From an uncultured Anaerolineae bacterium (GTDB taxonomy: Bacteria > Chloroflexota > Anaerolineae > Anaerolineales > Villigracilaceae), in contig CAILYI010000194.1 in the NCBI GenBank assembly GCA_903838415.1, forward strand, positions 1 through 64,000: a DNA stretch of 64,000 nt, written 5' to 3'. The position numbers and the translations under genes are program-made. The notes beneath the pieces are model-generated. The model made no database searches and was not told where the DNA came from. It saw only the letters and a list, made by a program, of their open reading frames with translations. Shown here one piece after another: positions 146 through 53,215 of the stretch. Position 1 is the first letter of the stretch, and every line of letters begins with the position of its first letter.

Positions 146-470
146 CAATATTGAAAAGACGTTGAAGAGGACGAGTACGCGCAGTACGACGGTTCAGAGA
201 GCAGGCAGTAATTGGTGAGAGCCCTGCCCGAAACGACAGCGCAGAATGGACCTCGGAGTTGCAGGGCGAAAGAGTTCAAGTAGCCCGCGCCGGGAAGCCC
301 CCGTTATAGGGCCAGGGTATAACTCTCTTTGAGAGCGTACCCGGACGAGTGAGGCTGGCTCCATCCCGTTTGCATCATAACGGGATTTTTTGTTAAAACA
401 GCCTAATTCGGGTGGCACCACGGACTACGCGTTCGTCCCGTTTATCGGACGAACGCGCCTTTTTTTAACC
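146..470 (+). promoter_or_regulatory. T-box riboswitch leader, probable tryptophan specifier
   Basis: The conserved T-box core GGGTGGCACCACGG is at 410-423, directly followed by an intrinsic terminator (429-465). Upstream are the GGACGAGTA motif (169-177) of the specifier-loop 5' side, an AGAGA segment near 195, and the 3' specifier strand AATGGACCTC. There TGG (247-249) sits where the specifier codon belongs, flanked by bases pairing with GAGG on the 5' strand. A small hairpin at 363-387 fits stem III. T-box leaders bind uncharged tRNA and then form an antiterminator. A Trp specifier agrees with trpB2 downstream. The codon assignment rests on manual alignment. Confidence 0.88.
429..466 (+). 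terminator. T-box conditional terminator
   Basis: A 10-bp stem (GCGTTCGTCC, 429-438, with GGACGAACGC, 447-456) is followed by CC and a run of seven T. It lies right after the T-box core, so it is the terminator that competes with the antiterminator. Confidence 0.9.
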
Positions 471-45254: not shown

Positions 45255-45923
45255 ATGTTACGCAAAGCCTTTGAAACCGAAATCCAACAGATGAAAGATG
45301 AGATCATTTTGCTCGGAAGCATGGTCGAACAAAATGTCCTTGATTCAGTTGAAGCCCTAAAAAAACGGGATATGGAAGCTTCGCGCAAAATTGTTGCGCT
45401 GGATAAGCTGATTAATGACAAGCGCTTTGCGCTTGAAAACCAGGTGATGATTATCATCGCCACCCAGCAGCCGATGGCGCATGACTTGCGCCTGCTGGCT
45501 TCGTTCTTTGAAATCATCAGCGAACTGGAACGCATGGGCGACTATGCCAAGGGCATCGGCGTGATCAACATTCGCATGGGCGATCAGCCTTTGCTGAAAC
45601 CGCTGGTGGATATCCCGCGCATGGCCCAAAAAGGGGCGGATATGCTGCACCGCGCCCTGGCCGCTTTCGTCAACGAGGATGCTGTCGCTGCCCGCCTGAT
45701 TCCGGCGGAGGACGACGAAGTGGATCATCTCTACGAACAGATTTACCGCGAATTGATGACCTACATCATGGCTGATCCGAAAAACATTGAGCGCGCCAAC
45801 TGGCTTTTGTGGGTGGCCCACAACCTGGAGAGATTTGCCGATCGCGTCACCAATATTTGTGAGCGGACGGTTTTCATCGTGACCGGTGAATTGACCGAAA
45901 TCAACGATATGAAAGACGGCTAA
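45255..45923 (+). CDS. phoU: Phosphate signalling protein PhoU
   Basis: 222 residues, two three-helix PhoU repeats with metal-binding ExxxD motifs (SELERMGDYAKGI near 95; HNLERFADRVTNI near 196). PhoU represses the phosphate response and adjusts PstSCAB. The ATG at 45255 is preferred over TTG 45243 because GAGGTG precedes it. No PhoR/PhoB pair is next to it. It is the last gene of the operon and lies just before the his promoter. Confidence 0.94.
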   Translation: MLRKAFETEIQQMKDEIILLGSMVEQNVLDSVEALKKRDMEASRKIVALDKLINDKRFALENQVMIIIATQQPMAHDLRLLASFFEIISELERMGDYAKGIGVINIRMGDQPLLKPLVDIPRMAQKGADMLHRALAAFVNEDAVAARLIPAEDDEVDHLYEQIYRELMTYIMADPKNIERANWLLWVAHNLERFADRVTNICERTVFIVTGELTEINDMKDG

Positions 45924-45951
45924 TCAATGGTTGTCGAGCAACTTCGAGACA

Positions 45952-45980
45952 TTGACGGATTCTGACTCCACGAGTAAAAT
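45952..45980 (+). promoter_or_regulatory. his promoter
   Basis: TTGACG (45952-45957), 17-base spacer, TAAAAT (45975-45980). It lies 29 bases after phoU and 10 bases upstream of the leader-peptide ATG. Confidence 0.85.
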
Positions 45981-45990
45981 GACGCCCATC

Positions 45991-46059
45991 ATGAAACTGA
46001 CCTTCTCCCAGCACCATCACCATCTGATTTGCCCCCTGCCTAACCGGAGAGCAGGTTAG
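45991..46059 (+). CDS. hisL: Histidine leader peptide
   Basis: A 22-codon frame beginning MKLTFSQHHHHLIC has four consecutive His codons (CAC CAT CAC CAT, 46012-46023). It sits between a good promoter and a terminator that precedes hisG. In classical attenuation, ribosome stalling at these codons under histidine starvation selects an antiterminator. Transcription probably starts within a few bases of this ATG, so its translation may be leaderless. The His run, position and terminator all agree. Confidence 0.88.
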   Translation: MKLTFSQHHHHLICPLPNRRAG

Positions 46060-46125
46060 TTTCGTTCCCACCCAAACTAACCCCCAGTAATCTCAGCCCC
46101 CGGTCATACGACCCGGGGCTTTTTG
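46040..46125 (+). promoter_or_regulatory. his attenuator with mutually exclusive hairpins
   Basis: Three RNA structures are visible. (1) CTAACC (46040-46045) with GGTTAG (46054-46059). (2) The same GGTTAG plus TTT (46054-46062) with AAACTAACC (46074-46082), a 9-bp stem. (3) The terminator stem 46095-46105/46110-46120 followed by TTTTTG. Stems 1 and 2 share a strand, so only one can form. A ribosome stalled on the His codons (46012-46023) would cover part of the first region. How stem 2 prevents the terminator is not fully clear from pairing alone. Confidence 0.8.
46095..46125 (+). terminator. his attenuator terminator
   Basis: Eleven-position stem with one mismatch (AGCCCCCGGTC, 46095-46105; GACCCGGGGCT, 46110-46120), loop ATAC, then TTTTG, 30 bases before hisG. 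Confidence 0.9.
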
Positions 46126-46154
46126 TTTACGCCCACCACAGAAAAGGATTTTTT

Positions 46155-47171
46155 ATGCCACGAACCGAACTGCGTCTCTCGATCCCATCCAAAGGCCGGC
46201 TCTCCGAGGATACGGTGGCTTTTCTCGCCGCCTGCGGGATCGACATTTACAAGCCGAATCCGCGCCAGTACGAGGCCACCATCCCCACTATGCCGGGCGT
46301 GACGGTGCTTTTTCAGCGTCCGACCGACATTGTCATCTCGGTCCGTAACGGTTCGGTGGATTTCGGCATCACCGGGCTGGACGTGCTGGAGGAGCATCGC
46401 GGCAAAAATGGCGATATTCTCGTGCTGCACGATGCGCTTGGGTACGGCAAGTGCGCGCTGGCGCTGGCGGTGCCCGAGAGCTGGGATTCCGTCGAAACGG
46501 TGGCAGATTTGCGGGGGCAGTCTGAATCGTTGGGGCGGCCGCTCAAAGTGGCCACCAAATTCCCGGAGCTGACCTCCCGTTTCCTCGCCGCGCATCAAAT
46601 CCCCTTTGAAATTGTCAGCGCGGAAGGGACGCTTGAAATCGCGCCCGCCATTGGTTTCGCTGACCTGATCTCGGACCTGGTCTCGAGCGGGCAAACTCTG
46701 CGCGACAACCGCCTGCGCCCGCTGACGGATGGCACCATCCAGCCTTCACAGGCGGCGCTGATTGCGAATCGCGCGGCGCTGCAAAATCCGTCTGCACTGG
46801 CGGTGGCGCAGCAACTGCTGGAATTTTTCGAGGCATTTCTGCGCGCGCATAACAACCTGTCGATTTTTGCAAACATGCGCGGGGAAAGTCCGCAGGCGAT
46901 TGCCGAGCGCATTTTTGCCCAAAAAACCATCGGCGGGCTGAACGGACCAACCGTCAGTCACATCATCCACCGCGATGGCGACCCGAACTGGTATGCGCTG
47001 CATATCATCATCCACCGCGACGAGTTGTTCAGCGCCATCAACGAATTGCGCGCCATCGGCGGCAGCGGCGTGGTGGTCGCCCCGGTGACGTATATTTTCG
47101 AGGAAGAGCCGCCCAGATATAAGGCGATGATCTCTGAGTTAACGAGTAACGAGAAACAAGTTGACGAGTAA
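46155..47171 (+). CDS. hisG: ATP phosphoribosyltransferase, long form
   Basis: First step of histidine synthesis (ATP + PRPP). 338 residues: catalytic domain with PSKGRLSEDTVAFL (about 11-24), the PRPP loop around SAEGTLEIAPAIGFADLISDLVSSG (about 155-180), and a C-terminal ACT-like regulatory domain (about 255-325, HIIIHRDELFSAINELRAIGGSG) that binds histidine in HisG-long enzymes. No hisZ is needed. The last 11 residues (ELTSNEKQVDE) are encoded by the intergenic heptamer repeat, so the natural C-terminus was extended. SD AAAAGGA. Confidence 0.94.
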   Translation: MPRTELRLSIPSKGRLSEDTVAFLAACGIDIYKPNPRQYEATIPTMPGVTVLFQRPTDIVISVRNGSVDFGITGLDVLEEHRGKNGDILVLHDALGYGKCALALAVPESWDSVETVADLRGQSESLGRPLKVATKFPELTSRFLAAHQIPFEIVSAEGTLEIAPAIGFADLISDLVSSGQTLRDNRLRPLTDGTIQPSQAALIANRAALQNPSALAVAQQLLEFFEAFLRAHNNLSIFANMRGESPQAIAERIFAQKTIGGLNGPTVSHIIHRDGDPNWYALHIIIHRDELFSAINELRAIGGSGVVVAPVTYIFEEEPPRYKAMISELTSNEKQVDE

Positions 47172-47225: not shown

Positions 47226-48578
47226 ATGTTAAAAATCTATTCCGTTCCCGAAGCTCGTCAATCTATCCTGAAACGCATCCCGCCCGATGAGACCGCCGTG
47301 ACACCCGCCATGCTCGACCGCCTGGCTGCCACTTTTGGCGAAAAAATCACCCCCGAAGAAGCCGTGCGCCGCATTTTACGGGATGTCCGCAGCCGGGGCG
47401 ACGCCGCCCTGCGCGAGTGGAGCGCCAAACTGGATGGTTTCCCGGCTGACGCGCCAATCCGCGTCCCCGCTGAAGCCTTATCCGCCGCCCTGGAAGCGCT
47501 CGACCCTGAAACGCGCGCCGCGCTCGAAGTGGCCGCACACAGAATCCGCGAGTTTTACCGCCGCCAGCCGCTGACCAGCTGGTTCACCAACGACCTGGGC
47601 GGCACGCTAGGACAGTTCATCCGCCCGCATGCCCGCGTCGGACTCTACGTTCCCGGCGGCACCGCCCCGCTTCCATCCTCCGTGCTGATGTCCGCCATCC
47701 CGGCGCAGGTGGCGGGCGTCAAAGACATCGTCATCGTCACGCCTCCGCAGAGAATTCAAAATTCAGAATTCAGAATTCAGAATTTGGTTTCCCCAGTGAT
47801 TCTGGCTGCCTGCGCCCTGGTCGGCGTGACGGAAGTCTATGCCCTGGGCGGCGCGCAAGCCATCGCCGCGCTGGCCTACGGCACTGAATCCGTCCCGGCA
47901 GTGGATAAAATCTTCGGCCCCGGCAACCTGTTCGTGACCCTCGCCAAGCGCCAGGTCTTTGGCGCGGTCGGCATCGACGGGCTGGCTGGCCCCACTGAAA
48001 CCGTCGTCATCGCCGACGACAGCGCCAAACCGGCCTGGGTCGCCGCGGATTTGCTTGCGCAGGCCGAACATGACGTGCTCGCCAGCGCCATCCTGCTGAC
48101 CCCATCCCAAAAACTGGCCGAAGCCGTCCAGATTGAAGTGGGCCGCCAGATGGAAACCCTGCCGCGCGCCGACATCCTGGCCCAATCCCTGCCCGGCCAG
48201 AGCGGCATCGTTGTCACCTGCGACCTCGACGAAGCCGCCGCGCTCAACAATGCCTACGCCCCAGAGCATCTCTGCCTGGCCGTGCGCGATCCCTGGGCAA
48301 TGAGTGAAAAAATCAGCAACGCGGGCGGCATCTTCATGGGTGAGCACTCCTTCGAAGTTTTGGGCGATTACGTCGCCGGGCCGAGTCACGTCATGCCGAC
48401 TGGCGGCAGCGCCCGCTTCGCCTCGCCGCTCAACGTCTGGGACTTTGTCCACATCATCAGCCTGATCGCCCTCAACCCGGCCACCACCGCCCAAATCGCC
48501 CCGCTCGCCGCCCGCATCGCCCGCGCGGAGGGGCTCGAAGCCCATGCGCGTTCCGCAGATGCGCGAGTAAACAAGTAG
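47226..48578 (+). CDS. hisD: Histidinol dehydrogenase with a repeat-derived insert
   Basis: 450 residues; oxidises L-histidinol to histidine in two NAD-dependent steps using zinc. Conserved: [94 protein letters not shown] and the late [13 protein letters not shown]. The start at 47226 has AAGGAG upstream. Between VTPP and PVILAAC the family has about seven residues; here there are about fifteen, including NSEFRIQNL encoded by AATTCAG heptamer repeats. Catalytic residues are outside the insert. Confidence 0.95.
47753..47787 (+). repeat. AATTCAG heptamer repeat inside hisD
   Basis: Five tandem 7-base units: AATTCAA, three AATTCAG, AATTTGG. The array is inside the hisD frame and adds residues to a surface loop; 35 bases is not a multiple of 3, but the frame stays open. 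Confidence 0.88.
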
Positions 48579-48630: not shown

Positions 48631-49707
48631 ATGATTACTCTCCCTGCCCACATCACCTCCCTGCCGCCCTACACACCGATCGAGCCGTTTGATGTGCTCT
48701 CCGAGCGTGTTGGGCGCGCGCCCGACCAGATCATCAAACTCGACGCCAACGAGAACCCCTACGGCATGTCGCCGCGCGCCCGCGAAGCGCTCGCCAGCCT
48801 GGCCTACGGACACATCTACCCCGATCCCGAGTCCCGCGCGCTGCGCGCCGCCCTCAGCCGCTTCACCGGCGCTCCCGCCGAAAACCTGCTGCCCGGCTCC
48901 GGCGCCGACGAGCTGATCGACCTGATTATGCGCGTCACGCTCAGCCCCGGCGACGCCATCCTCAACTGCCCGCCCACCTTCGGCATGTACGCCTTCGACG
49001 CCGACTTGAACAACGCCCGCGTCATCAACATCCCGCGCAAAGCTGATTTTTCTTTGGATATGGATGGGATTTTGGAGGCCGCTGGAAAGTTTTCTCCCAA
49101 ACTGATCTTCGTCACCTCCCCAAACAATCCCGACGGCTCCCTGCTCCCGCCACCGGTCTTGCAAAAACTATTGACACTGCCCACGCTGATTGTCCTCGAC
49201 GAAGCCTACATCGAATTCTCCGGTGTCCCCTCCCAAATTACCAATGTCCCAAATTACCAGAATCTGATCGTCCTGCGCACCTTCAGCAAACTGGCTGGTC
49301 TCGCCGGTCTGCGCGTCGGCTACGGCGCCTTCCCCACCTGGCTGATGTCGACGCTCTGGAAAGCCAAACAGCCCTATAATATCAACGTTGCCGCCAGCGC
49401 CGCCGCGATTGCCTCGCTGGACGACCCGGAGTATCTCGATTGGACGGTCAAAACCCTGGTGGCTGAAAGGAATCGCCTTTTCGACGGCCTTTCCCGCCTG
49501 CCCTGGCTCTCCCCCTACCCTTCGAGCGCCAACTTCCTCCTGTGCCGCGTCGCCCCTGAAGTGGATGCCGCCCAACTCAAAGCGGATTTGGCCCAAAACC
49601 ACGGCATCTTCATCCGCTACTTCAACAAACCCGGTCTGACGGACTGTATCCGCATTTCGGTCGGCAAGCCGGAGCAGACGGACGCGTTGTTAAAGGCATT
49701 GTCATAA
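48631..49707 (+). CDS. hisC: Histidinol-phosphate aminotransferase
   Basis: 358-residue class II PLP aminotransferase converting imidazole-acetol phosphate to histidinol phosphate. Landmarks: KLDANENPYGMSPRARE (about 33-49), TSPNNPDGSLLP (about 159-170), DEAYIEFSG (about 190-198), and the PLP lysine in RTFSKLAGLAGLRVGYG (near 216). No Shine-Dalgarno is obvious: the ATG at 48631 is reached through the repeat (CTACTCATATG), so translation may depend on coupling. Confidence 0.95.
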   Translation: MITLPAHITSLPPYTPIEPFDVLSERVGRAPDQIIKLDANENPYGMSPRAREALASLAYGHIYPDPESRALRAALSRFTGAPAENLLPGSGADELIDLIMRVTLSPGDAILNCPPTFGMYAFDADLNNARVINIPRKADFSLDMDGILEAAGKFSPKLIFVTSPNNPDGSLLPPPVLQKLLTLPTLIVLDEAYIEFSGVPSQITNVPNYQNLIVLRTFSKLAGLAGLRVGYGAFPTWLMSTLWKAKQPYNINVAASAAAIASLDDPEYLDWTVKTLVAERNRLFDGLSRLPWLSPYPSSANFLLCRVAPEVDAAQLKADLAQNHGIFIRYFNKPGLTDCIRISVGKPEQTDALLKALS

Positions 49708-49758: not shown

Positions 49759-50349
49759 ATGCGAACCGCCACCTTTTCCCGCAAAACCAACGAAACCGAC
49801 ATCAACATCGATTTGAATTTGGACGGCTCCGGCCTCCACGACATCGCCACCGGTGTCGGCTTTCTGGACCACATGCTGACACACATCGCCGTGCATGGAT
49901 TATTTGACCTGACCATCAAGGCGACCGGCGACTTGCACATCGACGTGCATCACACGGTCGAGGATGTGGCGCTGGTGCTCGGTTCCGCTTTCGACCAGGC
50001 GCTCGGCGACCGCAAGGGCATTTTCCGCATGGCCAGTTTTTACGTCCCGATGGACGAAAGCCTGGCCTTTGTGGCGCTCGATTTATCGGGACGCCCCTAC
50101 AGCGTAATCGACGCCACATGGGGCAGCGCCCCGGTCGGGCAAATTCCCACCAGCCTGTTCCCGCACTTTTTCGAGAGTTTCGCCGTCACCGCACGCTGCA
50201 ATCTCCACGCCCGGATTCTCTACGGCCGCGACGACCACCACAAAGCTGAGGCGCTCTTCAAGGCACTGGCGCGAGCGCTGGACGCGGCGACGATGTTGGA
50301 TGAAAGACGAAAGAGTGTGCCCAGCACGAAAGGGACGTTGACCGAGTAA
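49759..50349 (+). CDS. hisB: Imidazoleglycerol-phosphate dehydratase
   Basis: 196 residues, monofunctional (no phosphatase domain). Manganese-binding histidines are in [14 protein letters not shown] (about 34-47), [14 protein letters not shown] (about 68-81), [14 protein letters not shown] and [27 protein letters not shown]. It sits between hisC and hisA; because it has no N-terminal HAD domain, histidinol-phosphate phosphatase must be encoded elsewhere. Confidence 0.95.
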
Positions 50350-50418: not shown

Positions 50419-51153
50419 ATGACACCTGAACCCCCCTTCACCATTTTCCCCGCAATCGATCTCCGCAACGGCAAAATCGTCCGCCTGGCGCAGGGCGACC
50501 CCGAGCGCCAGACCACCTACGGCGATGATCCGCGTGCGCAGGCCGAGCAGTTCAAAGCCGCAGGCGCCGAGTGGATTCACGTTATCAACCTGAGCGGCGC
50601 GTTTGGCGAGGAGGCCTCGGCCAACATGAAAGCTCTCGAAACGGTACTCCGCGTCGGCTTGAAGGTTGAGTTCGGCGGCGGCATCCGCGACGAGGAAACG
50701 GTCCGCATCCCGCTTGAAATGGGCGTGGAGCGTGTTTTCCTGGGCACCGCCGCCATCCAGAACCCGGCGCTGGTCGATTGGGCGGTAGCGCGCTACGGCG
50801 CCGCCCGCATCGCCGCCGATATCGGCGCGCGCGACGGGCAGGTGATGATTCGCGGCTGGCAGGAATCCACCCCGCTGAGCATGCTCGAGGCTGGTAAGCG
50901 CTTCCGCGCCCAGGGCCTGGCGTGGTGCGTCCTGACGGACGTCCGCCGGGATGGCGTCGGCAGCGGCGTCAGCGTGGAGGCAGCCGTCGAGCTGCAAACC
51001 GCTACCGGCCTGCAAGTGGTCGCCTCGGGCGGCGTTTCCAGCCTGGAGGATGTCATCCGCGTCAAAAATGCCGGGCTGGCGGGCGTCATCATCGGTCGGG
51101 CGCTCTATGAAGGCAAACTCTCGCTGCGCGAAGCCCTGCTTGAGACAGCGTAA
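50419..51153 (+). CDS. hisA: Phosphoribosylformimino-AICAR-phosphate isomerase
   Basis: 244-residue TIM barrel that opens the ribose ring of ProFAR. Catalytic Asp in AIDLRNGKIVRLAQGD, EFGGGIRDEETV and the second Asp in CVLTDVRRDGVGSGV; late phosphate loop VASGGVSSLEDV and GVIIGRALYEG. The HVINLSGAFGE segment differs slightly from the usual HVVDLDGA. No clear SD: the preceding bases are repeat-derived. It closes the first his segment; hisH is 2.1 kb further on. Confidence 0.94.
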   Translation: MTPEPPFTIFPAIDLRNGKIVRLAQGDPERQTTYGDDPRAQAEQFKAAGAEWIHVINLSGAFGEEASANMKALETVLRVGLKVEFGGGIRDEETVRIPLEMGVERVFLGTAAIQNPALVDWAVARYGAARIAADIGARDGQVMIRGWQESTPLSMLEAGKRFRAQGLAWCVLTDVRRDGVGSGVSVEAAVELQTATGLQVVASGGVSSLEDVIRVKNAGLAGVIIGRALYEGKLSLREALLETA

Positions 51154-51165
51154 AACAAGCTGAGT

Positions 51166-51429
51166 GTGAAAACATCCCAAAGAATTCTTGTTTTGGCAAT
51201 CATTGTGCTGCTTAGCGGGCTCGGCCTGTTCTGTCTCGGCCTGATGCTTGATCCATTCAGCCTGCCTTTTCAAGATTACGAGCAAATGCCGCTCGCCACA
51301 CAGCAAGCCTACGAAACACGCGCCGCCTGGATGCAAATCATTCGTCTGTCTGGTTGCGGCATAACCGTCCTGGCCTTGCTGGGCATGCTGCTCACCTGGC
51401 TGGTTGGTCGGCGACGGCCGCAAGGATGA
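51166..51429 (+). CDS. Small two-span membrane protein
   Basis: 87 residues starting at GTG 51166, 12 bases after hisA. Two hydrophobic segments (about 7-30 and 60-80) flank a loop with MLDPFSLPFQDYEQMP. No SD is clear. Its 3' end overlaps the converging glycosyltransferase gene by 38 bases, which lowers certainty, though the hydrophobic pattern and position argue for a real gene. Function unknown. Confidence 0.55.
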   Translation: MKTSQRILVLAIIVLLSGLGLFCLGLMLDPFSLPFQDYEQMPLATQQAYETRAAWMQIIRLSGCGITVLALLGMLLTWLVGRRRPQG

Positions 51430-52663
51430 TTTTGGCGGCCGTCTCAGCGCCATTTTCTTCCCGGATTTTTGCGCCCAACACCTTGGCCGCCTCGCGTACT
51501 TCGCTCTTTAACACAAACCGGATCGCCTCCGCCAGATTCTCTGCCGTCAGTTTTTTGCGCGAAATAGGCCTGGCTGCGACACCCAACTCATAAACACGCT
51601 GCGCCCAGGCAAATTGATCGTTGCCATGCGGAATCACGATGGATGGCACGCCAGCCCGCAACCCCGCCGCCGTGGTGCCCGCCCCGCCGTGATGGACAAC
51701 CACCGCCATGCGCGGAAAAAGCCAGGCGTGTGGCGCGCTTTCCAACAGGTAGATGCTCTCAGGCAGGGAGATGCCTTCCGGCGTCCCACTCCAACCGGTG
51801 GCGAGCACCCCGCGTTCGCCCGAGCGCGCCAGGGCCTCGAGGATTAGCTGGGCGGTCTGGGTGGCCTGTTTCGGGTCGCCGATACTGCCAAAGCCGATGT
51901 AAACCGGCGCCGGGCCGCGTTCGAGGAAATCCGTCAGCGCGGTGGGCGGCTGCCAGTTGGGTTCGTCATCCAAAAACCAAAACCCGGTCTGATGGACGTG
52001 CGGCGGGAAATCCGCTGTCTGCGGGAAAATATGTGGACTGCACGAAACCACCGTTGGATGTGTCGCGCGTGTCTGGCGCGGAAAGGGACTGCCAAAATTA
52101 GCTGGCAGGCGGCCAAACTCTCGCTTCCAGAAATCTGCCACGCCGCCGCGCGACACCATCCAGAAAATTTGCTGGAAAACCTGGTGAGTCAGCAGGTTAT
52201 AGGTTTTCCCCAGGCGCGGCCCGGTAGAAAAAATCAGCGATGGGTAGGCGCGGGTGGCAGCCATCGGGAAGGGCGCAGCCAACACGGACGGAATTCCGCG
52301 TTCCTGCGCCGCAAAATAGCCAATCGTCATCCCAGGATGGTAAACCACCAGGTCGGCCTCCTGGCAGGCAGCAAAAAAATGTTTCTGCAGCGCCATTCCC
52401 AGGCGTTTCAACTCATTGAAACTGCGCGCAAATTTAAGCGGATTGTCGGCCTGCCGGGCATTATCAGCCACGGCGCTGTTCATCACACTGGCCAAATCGC
52501 CGGGGATGGGATAACACTCCAGTCCCAAGCCGCGCACGAAATCTGCGAACATTTCCAGTGTGGCAACTCGCACCTGCACCCCCGTTTTTTGCAGCGCCAG
52601 CCCAAGTGCCAGGTACGGCTGGACATCGCCGCGTGAACCCATCGTTAAAATAGTAATTAGCAT
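51392..52663 (-). CDS. GT1-family glycosyltransferase (UGT-like)
   Basis: 423 residues, two Rossmann domains (GT-B). N-terminal acceptor domain starts MLITILTMGSRGDVQPYLALG; the nucleotide-sugar motif in the C-terminal domain is HHGGAGTTAAGLRAGVPSIVIPHGNDQFAWA (about 332-362), typical of sterol/macrolide UGTs. It likely glycosylates a lipid or small hydrophobic compound. It is opposite in direction to the his genes and downstream of marR on the same strand, so marR may control it. Confidence 0.92.
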   Translation of the reverse strand: MLITILTMGSRGDVQPYLALGLALQKTGVQVRVATLEMFADFVRGLGLECYPIPGDLASVMNSAVADNARQADNPLKFARSFNELKRLGMALQKHFFAACQEADLVVYHPGMTIGYFAAQERGIPSVLAAPFPMAATRAYPSLIFSTGPRLGKTYNLLTHQVFQQIFWMVSRGGVADFWKREFGRLPANFGSPFPRQTRATHPTVVSCSPHIFPQTADFPPHVHQTGFWFLDDEPNWQPPTALTDFLERGPAPVYIGFGSIGDPKQATQTAQLILEALARSGERGVLATGWSGTPEGISLPESIYLLESAPHAWLFPRMAVVVHHGGAGTTAAGLRAGVPSIVIPHGNDQFAWAQRVYELGVAARPISRKKLTAENLAEAIRFVLKSEVREAAKVLGAKIREENGAETAAKIILAAVADQPAR

Positions 52664-52675
52664 ATCATCTCCGCT

Positions 52676-52770
52676 GTAAGGGCGACCTGCCCAGGTATAG
52701 CATTAACTATCTTCAGGCAAATTGGCCGCGTAAAATAGTTTACCGTCTGGTTTTGAAGGGTCGCCCCTAC
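52676..52770. repeat. GTAGGGGCGA inverted repeat, copy 3 (expanded)
   Basis: GTAAGGGCGA (52676-52685, one mismatch) and TCGCCCCTAC (52761-52770) flank 75 bases, longer than in the other two copies. The right arm overlaps the marR stop codon. Confidence 0.7.
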
Positions 52771-53177
52771 GCCTTAAAAAGTGCAACCAATTTGGTCAAA
52801 ATCGCATCGAACTGCCTGGCCTCCTCCGCACTCAGCGCCGAGCGGATAAAATCGCCGTATTCTTTCAAAGTCTGGAGTTTGGCCGCCACCAGTGCTGCTC
52901 CCGCCCCGGTCAGTGCGACGTAAAAAACACGCTTATCGGTCTCTGATTGGGTTTTCACCACGAAACCCATCTCGACCAGTTTCTGAATACCCGCTGTGAC
53001 CGAGGGTTTTGAAAACCCCAGCCGGGCAACAACGTCAGTGATCGTGGGCTGGCCCAGCGCGGCAATCGTGTCGATATATTGGAACTGGCTGACGGTCAGG
53101 TGCGCGAACCCTTCCGGTTGCAGGCGTTTGAGCGATTGATCCAGGGTTTCGATAAATTCGAGTAAGATTTTGTCCAT
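52767..53177 (-). CDS. MarR family transcriptional regulator
   Basis: 136 residues with a winged helix-turn-helix: AALGQPTITDVVARLGFSKPSVTAGIQKLVEMGFVVKTQSETDKRVFYVALT (about 39-90), and dimer helices at both ends. The wing and recognition helix (SKPSVTAGIQKLVE) are typical. It is divergent from hisH, and a 19-bp palindrome lies between them (53191-53209). Targets may be its own gene, the glycosyltransferase and hisHFIE. Its last residues and stop codon fall in the GTAGGGGCGA repeat. Confidence 0.92.
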   Translation of the reverse strand: MDKILLEFIETLDQSLKRLQPEGFAHLTVSQFQYIDTIAALGQPTITDVVARLGFSKPSVTAGIQKLVEMGFVVKTQSETDKRVFYVALTGAGAALVAAKLQTLKEYGDFIRSALSAEEARQFDAILTKLVALFKA

Positions 53178-53187
53178 AGCATCTCTT

Positions 53188-53215
53188 TTGATTAGTTAGG
53201 CTAACTAATTATAAT
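53188..53215 (+). promoter_or_regulatory. hisH promoter overlapping a MarR-type palindrome
   Basis: ATTAGTTAG (53191-53199), G, CTAACTAAT (53201-53209) is a perfect palindrome. It fills the spacer between TTGATT (53188-53193) and TATAAT (53210-53215; 16-base spacing) on the plus strand. Binding of a MarR dimer would block hisHFIE transcription. Confidence 0.72.

Follow-up and report, generated by a model that had tools for sequence, protein, structure and literature searches.

A putative ribosome-mediated attenuator with a probably leaderless, histidine-rich leader peptide upstream of hisG in Anaerolineae

The DNA analysed here, a stretch of 64 kb which we call the window, comes from an uncultured Anaerolineae bacterium. 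The nearest named relatives of its hisG gene are Anaerolineae and Chloroflexi records, at no more than 95% identity, thus the initial annotation was right in its guess of Chloroflexota as the phylum. Between an ORF ending at position 45923, which we take to be phoU-like, and hisG lies a leader region, whose elements are collected in Table 1 together with the genes behind it. A TTGACG-17-TAAAAT promoter, a 22-codon ORF with four consecutive His codons and a terminator just 5' of hisG had all been claimed for this region from the sequence, and all three were found in place. Apart from this promoter, 45500-46400 contains no sigma-70-like match, although shuffled versions of the stretch average 0.5. 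An ATG at 45979 was dropped as a possible leader start, since it overlaps the -10 box. A simple terminator scan lists 46040-46059 as terminator-like and misses 46095-46120, a stem with a C-C mismatch, which is recovered by a folding search. Compared with dinucleotide shuffles, the folding energy of the leader RNA (45987-46128) is lower by 5 s.d. (z -5.05).

Table 1. Elements of the leader region and genes of the his operon in the window.
Feature	Position	Strand	Basis
Sigma-70-type promoter, TTGACG-17-TAAAAT	45952-45980	+	sequence; similar spacing in relatives
-35 box TTGACG; 17-nt spacer to the -10 box	45952-45957	+	
-10 box TAAAAT	45975-45980	+	
Leader ORF MKLTFSQHHHHLICPLPNRRAG, 22 codons, ATG 45991 to TAG 46059	45991-46059	+	no Shine-Dalgarno
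Segment 1, start-codon region; without ribosome predicted to pair with segment 2 and part of D	45991-46009	+	minimum-free-energy fold
Four His codons, CAC CAT CAC CAT, putative sensing codons	46012-46023	+	sequence
Segment D (AACCGGAGAGCA), putative antiterminator 5' half; core ACCGG 46043-46047	46042-46053	+	comparison with relatives
Hairpin 2:3, GGTTAGTTT / AAACTAACC, between D and E	46054-46082	+	sequence; similar repeats in near relatives by eye
Segment E, terminator 5' arm; core CCGGT 46100-46104 can pair with D or F	46095-46105	+	
Intrinsic terminator E:F, stem 46095-46120, loop ATAC, T-rich tail	46095-46128	+	-18.2 kcal/mol
hisG, first operon gene, AGAAAAGGA upstream	46155-47171	+	Pfam HisG and HisG_C
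hisD	47226-48578	+	Pfam Histidinol_dh
hisC, aminotransferase named by position	48631-49707	+	Pfam Aminotran_1_2
hisB	49759-50349	+	Pfam IGPD
hisA, hisA-type gene named by position	50419-51153	+	Pfam His_biosynth

The his genes of the window are split, with a minus-strand glycosyltransferase gene and a MarR regulator lying between hisA and hisH (51392-53215). A perfect palindrome, ATTAGTTAG-G-CTAACTAAT (53191-53209), adjoins a TATAAT sequence 5' of hisH. The hisHFI genes are probably outside the reach of the attenuator proposed below.

The frequency at which such a leader arises by chance was assessed in several controls. On the two strands of the window, starts of short His-rich ORFs number five on the plus strand (two of them belonging to the leader) and one on the minus strand, and only the start at 45991 has a promoter. 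The surroundings of trpE, leuA, pheA and aroH in relatives, used as control loci (747,416 bases over both strands), contain 32 such starts, two of which are accompanied by a promoter-like match. Of 1090 dinucleotide shuffles derived from 218 hisG upstream sequences, 4 contained a His ORF together with a promoter, as did 1 of the 218 antisense strands.

To follow the leader among relatives, hisG was searched for in 152 genomes of the family (78 with a match), 151 of the order (77) and 199 of the class (154), and the HisG Pfam family in 201 genomes of the phylum (155 with a match). The upstream sequences used were those of 77 of the 78 family matches, 58 of the 62 order matches outside the family, 43 of the 146 class matches outside the order (37 chosen mostly by high hisG identity and 6 from the HisG Pfam search) and 78 of the 140 matches in other classes. 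The scan covered up to 500 nt in front of hisG, and genomes offering at least 200 nt there were used; a leader was counted when a short ORF starting with ATG encoded at least 3 His within 7 residues. Such a leader was present in 71 of 75 genomes of the family (Villigracilaceae), in 51 of the 58 genomes that represent the order's other families and in 13 of 42 from other orders of the class, where 28 genomes lack such an ORF; the total is 135 leaders in 175 usable genomes. These counts leave out one class-level genome, G519 (with it, 14/42), as well as L210 from another class, since in both the His-rich ORF has no promoter and was judged spurious. Apart from L210, the only such ORF there, other classes gave no convincing leader in 72 genomes; their hisG is mostly 25-52% identical, and since its start is set by a weak alignment and the first gene of the operon may differ, a leader may still lie elsewhere in these genomes. 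Thus, the leader is near-universal in the order as sampled, scattered through the rest of the class and unseen in other classes; the search of Anaerolineae hisG upstream regions suggested in the initial annotation found the His ORF in most relatives of the order.

The four family genomes without a counted leader are G071 and G065, in which hisG lies about 25 nt or less from the preceding gene, G109, in which a contig end cuts the leader and its distal part is still visible, and G141, which has no leader. Two genomes of the same genus (L011 and L018) lack the leader, with hisG within about 25 nt of a preceding phoU-like gene. One of the seven order genomes without a counted leader, G165, has a His ORF with a GTG start, as judged by eye. 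The genomes of Levilinea saccharolytica and Ornatilinea apprima carry such a leader. Two records titled Zixiibacteriota and Alphaproteobacteria (L113 and L128) contain an Anaerolineae-like hisG (63-65% identical) and are probably misbinned contigs. In one class-level relative, a SAM riboswitch was found near hisG (L313:208-403, minus strand).

Transcription typically begins at a purine that follows the -10 box by 5-8 nt. In the window, this rule predicts a start at about 45986-45988, which is 3-5 nt 5' of the leader ATG, itself ten bases behind the -10 box. A promoter matching at least 8 of 12 consensus positions within 4-16 nt of the ATG was found for 127 of the 135 leaders and not for the remaining 8. 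The distance from the end of the -10 box to the ATG is 6-11 nt in 122 of these 127 and exactly 10 nt in 74, a spacing that is partly selected, because the scan was limited to 4-16 nt before the ATG and the choice between ATGs with equal His content was decided by the best promoter. By the same rule, the predicted 5' UTR is at most 4 nt long in 121 of the 127. A duplex resembling a Shine-Dalgarno interaction (-4 kcal/mol or better) was found before only 2 of the 135 leaders vs 109 of the 135 hisG starts, the latter figure being the best of several candidate starts. No Shine-Dalgarno sequence precedes the leader ATG, as in leaderless mRNAs. The promoter-to-ATG spacing, seen from the predicted start, and the missing Shine-Dalgarno sequence bear out the suspicion, voiced from the window sequence, that the leader peptide is translated leaderless, which is probably the case. 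Of 12 Chloroflexi genomes, 4 are reported to contain leaderless genes, at a frequency of about 4.7% (Zheng et al., PMC3160421).

It could also be that the his attenuator is real and its leader is not leaderless, in which case transcription would start further upstream and the ribosome would be recruited by an unrecognised signal. This is unlikely: the selection imposed by the scan design, the 8 leaders without a promoter in the range scanned and the TACAAT located 36 nt upstream of the ATG used in G072 would all fit, yet a distance of 6-11 nt in nearly all of the leaders with a promoter, with more than half at exactly 10, the two cases of Shine-Dalgarno-like pairing and the yield of the shuffled upstream sequences argue against it.

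Two alternative hairpins, 46040-46059 and 46054-46082, had been named in the initial annotation. The inverted repeats exist (46040-46045/46054-46059 and 46054-46062/46074-46082), but neither hairpin overlaps the terminator, therefore they would be unable to control it alone and were ruled out as a full switch. Such control can be exerted by segment D, lying where the leader ORF ends, whose pairing with the terminator 5' arm E is the predicted antiterminator. A terminator lies between the leader ORF and hisG in 128 of the 135 leaders and was not found in 7. In the family, the median distance from the last His codon to D is 15 to 27.5 nt. In 124 of 127 leaders, D is separated from the His run by 10 nt or more, a figure obtained by seeking D only behind the run and without a shuffled control. 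The D:E duplex is stronger than in spacer shuffles (p<=0.05) in 76 of 127 leaders, namely 47 of 66 in the family, 22 of 48 in the order and 7 of 13 in the class; it is not above shuffles at this level in 19, 26 and 6 of them, respectively. The paired sequences differ: GACCGG in D and CCGGTC in E were found in the sister genome G070, GGTCGGG and CCCGACC in much of genus g26, and other pairs outside the order, e.g., GATCGAAGG with CCTTCGATC (G546).

Covariation was assessed in an alignment of 58 of the 67 family leaders with a terminator, compared with 500 shuffles. In D:E, 95.9% of cells are paired vs 86.6% in shuffles, 43 cells are doubly changed vs 17.6, and the covariation score is 0.422 vs 0.242, none of the 500 shuffles reaching any of these values; when the D:E partner is slid, pairing falls to 58.6% or less. 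Two of the five measures, namely how many pairs of D:E are doubly changed and how many pair types occur, are not above shuffles (157 and 125 of 500 reach them), and since the D:E changes largely track two clades, independent change events are few. The E:F stem is 98.5% paired, and the columns of hairpin 2:3 are non-homologous between the two main groups of the alignment.

We also folded the RNA as it would be before F is made, with a ribosome masked either at the His codons or at the leader stop. With the ribosome stalled, the mean pairing of E with upstream sequence is 0.61, 0.61 and 0.70 in the family, order and class, vs 0.38, 0.42 and 0.43 with a shuffled spacer, and it exceeds the shuffled value in 58 of 66, 37 of 48 and 12 of 13 leaders. 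In G136 the two are close (0.42 vs 0.39 in its own shuffles). With the ribosome at the stop, this pairing is 0.17, 0.22 and 0.22, and lower than in the stalled state in 65 of 66, 42 of 48 and 13 of 13 leaders, a difference that is partly built in, because the ribosome mask then covers D. Across relatives, antiterminator and terminator are thus mutually exclusive, with a modelled choice that depends on the ribosome; in the window this is weaker.

We propose, at a probability of about 0.88, that the hisGDCBA operon is controlled by this leader through ribosome-mediated transcription attenuation. This layout had been suggested from the window sequence, and it is strongly supported by the comparative evidence: the leaders and their spread, the promoter spacing, the terminator and the D:E complementarity are what the comparison of sequences provides. 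From these we infer the transcription start, leaderless initiation, stalling and a regulatory response. Transcription would begin a few bases 5' of the leader AUG, and a ribosome would load at the 5' end without a Shine-Dalgarno sequence. When histidyl-tRNA is ample, the ribosome would reach the leader stop and cover D, E would pair with F, and RNA polymerase would halt before hisG. When histidyl-tRNA is scarce, the ribosome would stall at the His codons, leaving D, which starts 19 nt past the last of them, free; segment 1 would be covered, segment 2 would pair with 3, and hairpin 2:3 would draw D and E together. D would then pair with E, which is made before F, so that the terminator is prevented and hisG transcribed. 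If there is no translation, segment 1 would sequester segment 2 together with part of D; the terminator would form. Such a design would make it possible to test leaderless initiation in a device that depends on ribosome-polymerase timing, and it would give regulatory access to a phylum of which few representatives have been cultured.

The window copy differs from that of the sister genome G070. Its D reads CTAACCGG where that of G070 reads CTGACCGG, a weakening substitution, and its D:E duplex (-11.4 kcal/mol, p 0.07) is weaker than in G070; the C-C mismatch of its terminator is absent from the G070 terminator. In an equilibrium model of the finished transcript, the window terminator forms at 0.89 in every ribosome state, while that of G070 forms at 0.00 with the ribosome stalled and 0.98 with the ribosome at the stop. 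This would suit a decaying copy, in which a constitutive terminator precedes hisG and no switching takes place in the window genome. We regard this as quite unlikely, since all elements are intact and, before F is made, E of the window pairs upstream at 0.69 in the stalled state vs 0.16 at the stop and 0.37 with a shuffled spacer. Control in the window copy may be weaker, or dependent on timing.

The short ORF might instead encode a functional His-rich peptide, e.g., a metal-binding one, with the terminator as part of a small gene. The leaders are widespread, and the S. meliloti peptide peTrpL is described as acting in trans (PMC7298713), however, the nucleotides past the His run are read in differing frames, clear cases being PLPDRRAG, CLTGAQVR and ARPGDSL, therefore the peptide is not the thing kept. 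A D-like core, the first RYCGG past the His run, occurs in 88 of 127 leaders (it is not always D, e.g., in G069) and, counted from the leader ATG, is found in each of the three frames, so that selection acts on the RNA and not on the peptide. Since the ORF also lies 5' of hisG and D is complementary to a terminator arm, a purely peptide function is very improbable and was rejected.

Control of the operon by a T-box or metabolite riboswitch, with a His run that is mere coincidence, is scarcely credible, even with a T-box elsewhere in the window: in the leader no Rfam family reaches its gathering score, an sRNA family that is unrelated provides the best weak match (E 0.29), the T-box model RF00230 gives no match, and His runs occur in 135 leaders vs the two promoter-linked cases in the 747 kb of control loci. 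Known Rfam families were thus rejected as the identity of the his leader.

The sole T-box of the window (153-443, E 2.8e-22) is located upstream of a gene at 673-2040, presumably tryptophan-synthase-beta-like. Elsewhere in the same genome (L402:2412-2513), the branched-chain-rich leader MNTYLISLVLVVLLAVLIIKDQLVVGMAKVRAK lies upstream of a gene that we take to be ilvD-like; a terminator follows, with a 5' arm complementary by eye to the distal part of the ORF. This leader is not leaderless, because its ATG lies 22 nt past a TATAAT. The window genome seems to use both T-boxes and leader peptides. In relatives, short ORFs very rich in Phe, Tyr and Trp (e.g., MNLSHRYYFAWYFYGFQ) were observed behind a promoter at 5 of 30 pheA loci (L401:2529-2606, L412, L414, L420 and L426; in L401 a terminator follows). 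They were also seen, again with a promoter, at 13 of the best 30 of 56 matches to CM_1, chorismate mutase (L431-L459), with a promoter gap of 6-11 nt in 9 of the 13. These ORFs are likely leaderless aromatic attenuators. Within the 23 trpE and 30 leuA loci retrieved, a scan for leaderless ORFs rich in Trp or Leu and preceded by a promoter of at least 9/12 gave none. We lean slightly towards the view that Anaerolineae independently evolved a general style of amino-acid attenuation, in which leader peptides start right at the 5' terminus of the mRNA. The His leader would be its most fully documented example; the aromatic leaders before chorismate mutase genes have a similar promoter-to-ATG spacing. 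If so, the first ribosome would load as the RNA emerges, and its coupling to the polymerase would be set at once.

The his leader of E. coli and Salmonella (Rfam His_leader, RF00514), described by a scheme of segments A-F, likewise combines consecutive His codons in a short leader ORF with alternative pairings, which lead to either an antiterminator (D:E) or a terminator (E:F) ahead of the first his gene. The Anaerolineae leader differs from it in being probably leaderless, with no Shine-Dalgarno sequence, in having D within or just behind the leader ORF, and in belonging to a different phylum; the RF00514 covariance model gave no match in the window (at the gathering score or at E<=10) or in 6 relatives (E<=1). 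A 2013 survey, which used the four amino-acid leader motifs that Rfam then contained and covered five Chloroflexi genomes among others, suggested that such attenuators may have arisen in gamma-proteobacteria and been transferred very rarely (PMC3766115). The his attenuator proposed here fits no Rfam family, and its wide distribution within one order of Anaerolineae favours an independent origin or a much greater age.

The initial annotation called this layout best known in Proteobacteria, which is true, but His leader peptides are already reported in Firmicutes, before hisZ and hisS (PMC2965389) and as candidate attenuators in three lineages (PMC9413887). The latter, described with 3-5 consecutive His codons, an antiterminator and a terminator, resemble the Anaerolineae leader and also lie outside Proteobacteria; the Anaerolineae leader, in contrast, is widespread in one order and present in others. 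Its promoter-to-ATG spacing is of the leaderless kind. A literature search found no report of a leaderless His attenuator, of a His attenuator in Anaerolineae, or of any work joining leader peptide, attenuator and Chloroflexota, in agreement with the initial annotation, which knew of no description in this phylum; this is provisional, as most subscription journals were outside the search. Leaderless leader peptides are known from S. meliloti trpL, part of an amino-acid attenuator (PMC7298713), and from C. glutamicum ilvB and the mycobacterial poly-Cys sORFs (cited in PMC4046766 and PMC13236596). As predicted for the leader described here, they have an mRNA starting at the start codon or no ribosome binding site; they differ in phylum and in using amino acids other than His. 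Thus, leader peptides of the leaderless type and, separately, His attenuators in phyla other than Proteobacteria were already known, and what is provisionally new, as far as the search extended, is their combination, the spread of the leader in the order and the D:E layout.
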